Source of the DNA: Sphingobacterium sp.
Lineage (GTDB): Bacteria; Bacteroidota; Bacteroidia; Sphingobacteriales; Sphingobacteriaceae
Direction: 5' to 3'
DNA: 64,000 nucleotides
NCBI GenBank assembly: GCA_031253985.1
Contig: JAIRVH010000223.1
Location: forward strand, 46,232-110,231
The stretch's first letter is position 1. Every line of letters starts with the position of its first letter. The position numbers and the translations under genes were made by a program. This document shows, piece by piece, positions 2,640-52,457 of this stretch. Under the pieces are notes generated by a model. That model saw only the letters and a program-made list of their open reading frames with translations. It was not told the DNA's origin and ran no database searches.

Positions 2640-2647
2640 TACATTTG
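2640..2647 (+). promoter_or_regulatory. Bacteroidota -7 element TACATTTG (TAnnTTTG) of sRNA copy A
   Basis: Exact match to TAnnTTTG just upstream of the duplicated RNA unit. Confidence 0.6.
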
Positions 2648-2719
2648 TACCATCATAATTTAGGTTTATAATTGGTTATTGAAGGTTTTCATTCTCCCCG
2701 TTTGAAAACCTTTTTTTTT
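2648..2719 (+). ncRNA. Putative small RNA, copy A
   Basis: About 70-nt intergenic unit identical to 51973-52044 except for 2 positions; ends in a 10-bp hairpin AAGGTTTTCA/TGAAAACCTT (2682-2691/2703-2712) with loop TTCTCCCCGTT and a T-tract. Confidence 0.75.
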
Positions 2720-51923: not shown

Positions 51924-51964
51924 TTTTTTTTGAAATAATACTTGACAGAGTGTAATAAACACAC

Positions 51965-51972
51965 TATCTTTG
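51965..51972 (+). promoter_or_regulatory. Bacteroidota -7 element TATCTTTG of sRNA copy B, with upstream TTG
   Basis: CTTGACAGAGTGTAATAAACACACTATCTTTG: TTG about 20 nt upstream of an exact TAnnTTTG. Confidence 0.7.
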
Positions 51973-52044
51973 TACTATCATAATTTAGGTTTATAATTGG
52001 TTATTTAAGGTTTTCATTCTCCCCGTTTGAAAACCTTTTTTTTT
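51973..52044 (+). ncRNA. Putative small RNA, copy B
   Basis: Identical to 2648-2719 except for 2 positions; terminator hairpin 52007-52016/52028-52037 with loop TTCTCCCCGTT and a T-tract. Confidence 0.78.
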
Positions 52045-52402
52045 ACTTCGTTATTCCAATTGATAGAAACCGACATCGCAATTCATTTGTCAATTTATCA
52101 GGGTCCAAATCAGTTCGGGCACCGACTAAATATCGTTACTATTGATTCATTCTTACCTTATGGCCAATTGATCGTTCCAACGAGCTATTATCCAATCCAT
52201 TATTTTACTGGGTAGCTTACCTCTGGAAAAAGTCGCATTTGATCTGATGTTTAGGCAGCTCGAATGAAACCGATTATTTCCTCAAAGTTAAACAAGACAA
52301 GTCGTTTATTTTAGCTAAAGTCGACCATTTTATACCGTTTTCAGAGACACATAAAGCCTGTTTAAAGCACTGTTATAGCACTAACCCCTAGTATGACTTT
52401 AG

Positions 52403-52457
52403 TACTATATCTGTACTATATCTGTACTATATCTGTGCTTTATCTATACTGGAGCTG
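52403..52457. repeat. Tandem 11-bp repeat, 5 units (3 perfect TACTATATCTG, 2 degenerate at 8/11)
   Basis: Direct reading: TACTATATCTG x3, TGCTTTATCTA, TACTGGAGCTG. Confidence 0.9.

Follow-up and report, generated by a model that had tools for sequence, protein, structure and literature searches.

In Bacteroides thetaiotaomicron, the small RNAs FopS and GibS are made from sigma-ABfr-type promoters and consist of a conserved unpaired 5′ stretch with an intrinsic terminator behind it, FopS being present in 12–15 copies per genome (PMC11697453; PMC7366714). They are also found in a phage and are tied to carbohydrate use; through the unpaired stretch they pair with mRNA start regions, among them those of susC-like mRNAs, and their partner RbpB is an RRM protein (PMC11697453; PMC7366714). 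Many Bacteroidota lack Hfq.

A unit of comparable layout occurs twice in the window, that is, in the whole stretch of 64,000 nucleotides analysed here, which belongs to a 5.98-Mb genome that is Sphingobacterium-like by its relatives. A first-pass annotation had placed a duplicated small-RNA gene at 2640-2719 (copy A) and 51965-52044 (copy B), and both copies are indeed found there. As it had also reported, they differ at 2 positions between the TTTG of the –7 element and the T-tract (2644-2719 versus 51969-52044), and the flanking DNA of the two sites is unrelated, the likeness being confined to the unit; two more differences fall in the initial four bases of the –7 element. A 25-nt core word has two exact matches in the window and none in 100 shuffles, and a scan of the window with this word at up to 3 mismatches returns copies A and B as the only places. 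The parts of the two copies are the following:

2640..2647, + strand: –7 element of copy A, Bacteroidota-type, TACATTTG (sequence; 14-nt spacing from TTTG to the core)
2653..2719, + strand: putative small RNA of copy A, about 66-68 nt (predicted 5′ end; 3′ end at the T-tract)
2654..2679, + strand: invariant core of copy A, CATAATTTAGGTTTATAATTGGTTAT, predicted to be unpaired
2681..2713, + strand: terminator hairpin of copy A, loop region TTCTCCCCGTT, inner loop UCCCC (fold; covariation)
2711..2719, + strand: terminator T-tract of copy A (sequence)
51942..51947, + strand: possible –33 element of copy B, TTGACA (sequence)
51949..51965, + strand: operator-like palindrome of copy B, AGTGTAATAAACACACT, consensus AGTGTA-N5-TACACT (pattern at a fixed offset)
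51965..51972, + strand: –7 element of copy B, TATCTTTG (sequence; shared promoter geometry)
51978..52044, + strand: putative small RNA of copy B (conserved unit; identity with the L140 ortholog)
51979..52004, + strand: invariant core of copy B, unpaired (matches to the core word)
52006..52038, + strand: terminator hairpin of copy B, C-rich loop (copy A sequence; one base just before it differs)

The small RNA of copy A is assigned from the conservation of the unit across the six full copies of its own genome and in the ortholog of Sphingobacterium athyrii (L068), where the RNA body is 100% identical and the flanks have about 75-76% identity over the surrounding 1.3 kb. Copy B is identical to its ortholog in L140 from –60 to +60, with 85-98% identity outside this interval. 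A short tandem repeat of about 13 nt (CTATATCTGTACTATATCTGTACTATATCTGT) lies at 52395-52450 of the window, a few hundred bases past copy B.

The word "duplicated" was right as to the repeat and understated its extent. BLAST of the host genome retrieves six full-length copies of the promoter plus the RNA of about 68 nt, the other five being 94-95% identical to copy A, together with eight further, shorter matches restricted to the core, and a profile search finds 25 module copies. A pattern search of the same genome at up to 3 mismatches yields 14 sites at 0-1 mismatch, against zero in the reversed control (the hits C51 and C191 fall at contig ends and probably represent a single locus), and additional variants with CATAAATTTAGGTTAATAATTGG emerged in a later search. 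By profile search, the module is present in 118 of 151 sampled Sphingobacteriaceae genomes and in 20 of 25 genera, with up to 32 copies. An exact 24-mer, in a scan that requires a perfect match and is no measure of conservation, is found in named genomes of Sphingobacterium, Parapedobacter, Mucilaginibacter, Olivibacter and Rhinopithecimicrobium. The module is carried by phages too: it occurs in 30 IMG/VR viral contigs, one of which (L320) is a clear phage region with terminase, portal and structural genes by reading of its ORFs, and has a tRNA-Asp whose end lies 12 nt ahead of the module. The plasmid and named-phage collections contained no module match. Among the phage loci (L312-L341, including L320:3061-3210) the module often has a tRNA or a small hairpin immediately in front of it, and in some phage versions the loop departs from CCC.

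In every copy the order of elements is the same: the core (CATAATTT)AGGTT[T/A]ATAATTGGTTAG is followed by a short spacer, then a hairpin and finally a T-rich tail. In an alignment of 29 diverse copies, 14 columns of the core are invariant. The hairpin sequences vary by copy type, with a CCC-containing loop in 173 of 178 copies, and the loop is kept as UCCCC or CCCAU while the changes in the stem are compensatory. In counts of base pairs anchored on the loop, all 45 distinct CCCAU hairpins are paired throughout the six innermost levels, with at least 2 pair types, and up to five or more, at five of these levels; of the 38 distinct UCCCC hairpins, 35-38 are paired at each level from 5 to 10, where several pair types are represented, and in a shifted register pairing is lost at most levels. 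These counts were used in place of RNAalifold, which found no structure in the mixed alignment because stems of different length were misaligned. Compensatory stem changes in further copies, which the first-pass annotation had named as support for its reading, are present in both hairpin types. The RNA of copy A folds at –12.7 kcal/mol (z = –2.4) with the core predicted to be unpaired. The first-pass annotation had recognised no named family, and the Rfam search that it proposed agrees: in Rfam 15 the module exceeds the gathering threshold of no family, nor is there any match up to an E-value of 5. No paper containing the module sequence or describing the family was found in the open-access papers searched. 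The module is a previously unlisted small-RNA family, and the comparative data make it highly probable that the family is a real one.

The upstream contexts of 204 non-redundant copies were classified by simple sequence patterns. A Bacteroidota-type –7 element (TAnnTTTG, sigma-ABfr-type) abuts 61 of them, and in 59 of these 61 the distance from TTTG to the AGG of the core is exactly 14 nt; sigma54-like –24/–12 elements lie within 160 nt of 15 copies, a T-arm-like sequence (GGTTCRAnnCC) precedes 52, and the rest have leaders matching none of these classes. The reading of the first-pass annotation, an independently transcribed RNA running from near the –7 element to a C-loop terminator, is supported by the fixed 14-nt spacing, the covariation of the stem and the lack of an Rfam match. 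As the promoter-type copies contain nothing else, the module itself appears to be the functional RNA, and the family is most likely transcribed. The mature RNA would consist of an unpaired invariant recognition stretch of about 18-26 nt followed by the intrinsic terminator with its C-rich loop; copies A and B would be expressed from their own housekeeping-type promoters, with the RNA beginning at the core, and other copies would yield an identical 3′ module via sigma54-like promoters. The Qrr small RNAs of Vibrio, likened here by description, offer a parallel in their several near-identical copies and in the sigma54-like promoters of some module members, but Qrr function needs Hfq, which the host family lacks.

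The number of copies per genome and the 30 viral contigs would also be expected of a mobile or REP-like repeat, one scattered by transposition or phages and devoid of regulatory function. The first-pass annotation had named the extension of the repeat into such a larger element as the outcome that would speak against a small RNA, and this is not what is seen: the repeat is confined to the RNA unit with no common extension past it, its stem changes are compensatory, its promoter geometry is fixed, and an ortholog is identical while its flanks have diverged. We regard the mobile repeat as a very remote alternative.

The tRNA-like contexts are more intricate. In the host genome a degenerate leucine-tRNA-like sequence lies upstream of one copy (C171), and in some genera (L191, L189, L181) a tRNA-like sequence and the module occur in tandem; at the chromosomal loci examined, neither ARAGORN nor Rfam called these tRNA-like sequences. 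In the tandem arrays of Mucilaginibacter and related genera (L191, L189, L181, L106), the unusual tRNA-like sequences have a Leu-like body and a long variable arm and end in GGTTCGAYTCCTTCYCCTACAG, with a copy of the module after each one, and in other Mucilaginibacter loci (L111, L146, L157, L163) short tRNA-like structures made of an acceptor-like stem and a T-arm are placed between promoter and module. The 3′ ends of tmRNA, RNase P RNA and 6S RNA were considered as hosts of the module and rejected, the Rfam matches beside non-promoter copies being to tRNAs only. In copies that follow a tRNA or tRNA-like structure, 3′ processing of the tRNA would free the module and, as we infer from this arrangement, release the identical short RNA. 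Short RNAs that lie directly after a tRNA and are freed by 3′ processing are familiar as tRNA-linked small RNAs or 3′ external transcribed spacers; the module differs from them in recurring behind many unusual tRNA-like sequences and in having stand-alone, promoter-driven versions as well. Since the core always stands directly upstream of the terminator hairpin, and the module often ends tRNA or tRNA-like units, in phages too, it might instead be a specialised terminator, in which the core acts as a termination or pausing signal where untranslated transcripts end, the short RNA arising only as a by-product. RNAs consisting of the module alone, made from dedicated promoters of fixed spacing with a common operator, would then be pointless; one full-length RNA also recurs in many copies per genome, and we consider this explanation improbable.

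The operator is a palindrome, AGTGTA-N5-TACACT, which at up to 2 mismatches is present in 42 of the 61 promoter-abutting copies (about 0 in shuffles) and in 41 of these 42 lies 16-17 nt upstream of the start of the –7 element. It is found in copy B and is not recognisable in copy A; 18 copies of the unassigned class, mostly from Mucilaginibacter, also have it. Elsewhere in the host genome, exact operators stand upstream of the fructose-bisphosphate aldolase gene (fba), between the 6-phosphofructokinase gene (pfkA) and a divergent gene whose Nudix product carries NrtR_WHD and AraR_C domains, and in the interval separating a sugar-porter transporter from a periplasmic-binding histidine kinase. 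SusC-like receptors are among the carbohydrate genes preceded by sites with one mismatch, a class of site that also arises by chance (8 per strand in the reversed control versus 19). Given operators at glycolysis and sugar genes and a Nudix protein divergent from pfkA, the controller is likely to be an NrtR/AraR-type repressor that responds to sugars; the passages of the AraR paper that were searched give no motif for comparison. In copy B and most other promoter-type copies, such a repressor of carbon metabolism would probably bind between the –33 and –7 elements. The palindrome marks a probable sugar or glycolysis regulon (L211:702-2536, L209, L212), which includes the NrtR/AraR-type Nudix regulator divergent from pfkA.

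As to partners, Hfq is absent above the PF17209 cut-off from all 151 Sphingobacteriaceae genomes, with five control genomes positive, and RRM_1 has no match in 19 sampled genomes of the same genus, so that a protein of either type is rejected as the common partner. The search for mRNA targets covered 1588 start regions: antisense matches to the core of 11 nt or longer numbered 6 (1.6 expected), and those of 12 nt or longer numbered 4 (0.5 expected). This early enrichment did not prove specific, as module-free control genomes behaved similarly: for 10-nt antisense words, 8 matches versus 4.7 expected and 5 versus 2.6 expected were counted in module-bearing and module-free stretches, respectively. 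The ratios being similar with and without the module, the antisense test does not support mRNA targeting. Complementarity to 14-mers elsewhere in the host genome is essentially limited to the modules themselves. An anti-phage dCTPase-like gene (PADLOC dCTPase; L090:1087-2686) has a leader that contains TAACCAATTATAAA, a 14-nt antisense match to the core, and was dropped as a predicted target because the match is not kept in orthologs. The suggestion that the C-rich loop could bind purine-rich sequences found no backing in mRNAs, its antisense words being rare, if anything, around start codons, and the loop as an anti-purine seed was set aside for want of enrichment there. Small RNAs of Staphylococcus with a C-rich loop (UCCC) pair with Shine-Dalgarno sequences; the module resembles them in its C-rich hairpin loop, but its loop antisense words are not enriched at start codons.

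These results bear on the main rival explanation, a serious one, in which the unpaired core and the C-rich pentaloop form a two-part site for an RNA-binding protein which, in a family without Hfq, stabilises various non-coding RNAs or loads them. Stem and spacer vary around a fixed core and loop, the module is joined to unrelated RNAs upstream, among them tRNAs and tRNA-like sequences, Sphingobacteriaceae have no Hfq, and the mRNAs carry no specific antisense signal; moreover, a core that is invariant over many genera, as this one is, is also expected of a protein site, which counts against pairing. Yet copies of the A and B type are the module alone, which must act alone, the genus has no RRM proteins, the type of partner known from Bacteroides, and the analysis yielded no candidate protein. 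We treat the protein site as a tentative explanation, and equally tentative is its corollary that targeting, where present, would reside in the variable upstream parts. Somewhat more speculative still is a role for the core and pentaloop as an RNA "address" for a protein that substitutes for Hfq in Sphingobacteriaceae, attached by host and phage to stand-alone small RNAs and, through tRNA-like devices that make 5′ ends, to other transcripts. The reading that we favour is that the unpaired core most likely pairs with mRNAs in the manner of Bacteroides FopS and GibS, and the whole statement, a multicopy family of trans-acting small RNAs including the pairing mechanism, has in our judgement about an even chance of being correct. 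The module is probably a regulatory RNA in bacteria without Hfq.

Its layout, copy number and presence in phages suggest that the module works most like FopS and GibS. Its order of parts, a conserved 5′ stretch free of pairing and then an intrinsic terminator, is the one known from FopS (PMC11697453), and it has in common with both RNAs many paralogs per genome, sigma-ABfr-type promoters, an occurrence in Bacteroidota, carriage by phages and a link to carbohydrates. On the other hand, an RbpB-type RRM partner is absent from the genus, and the module, compared with FopS by the latter's description, has no Rfam match; as the partner is absent and sequence homology could not be demonstrated, the module is not filed as a FopS/GibS member. 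The tRNA-like upstream parts, the sigma54-like promoters and the fixed C-rich loop are features that PMC11697453 and PMC7366714 do not mention. The resemblance suggests that multicopy FopS-like networks recur across the phylum and are not a speciality of Bacteroides. A repeated, sequence-rigid module common to chromosomes and phages, tied to sugar metabolism by its operator and to tRNA-like elements by its placement, also means that one probe or pull-down reaches the whole family.

Beyond Sphingobacteriaceae, 399 genomes of the phylum gave only four weak hits, and at 3 mismatches the core was not found outside the family, bar one unconvincing hit. Two of the four weak hits (L437, L439) resemble diverged members by eye. 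These two, from other families, and L436, from genus g21, look like diverged relatives of the module: L436 keeps the loop CATTCTCCCCGTCTG and AATTGGTTAGTTTGAAA, and L439 has a sigma54-like promoter, TCATAATTTAATTTTTTGGTTGGTTAG and the loop GCTCCTCGC.
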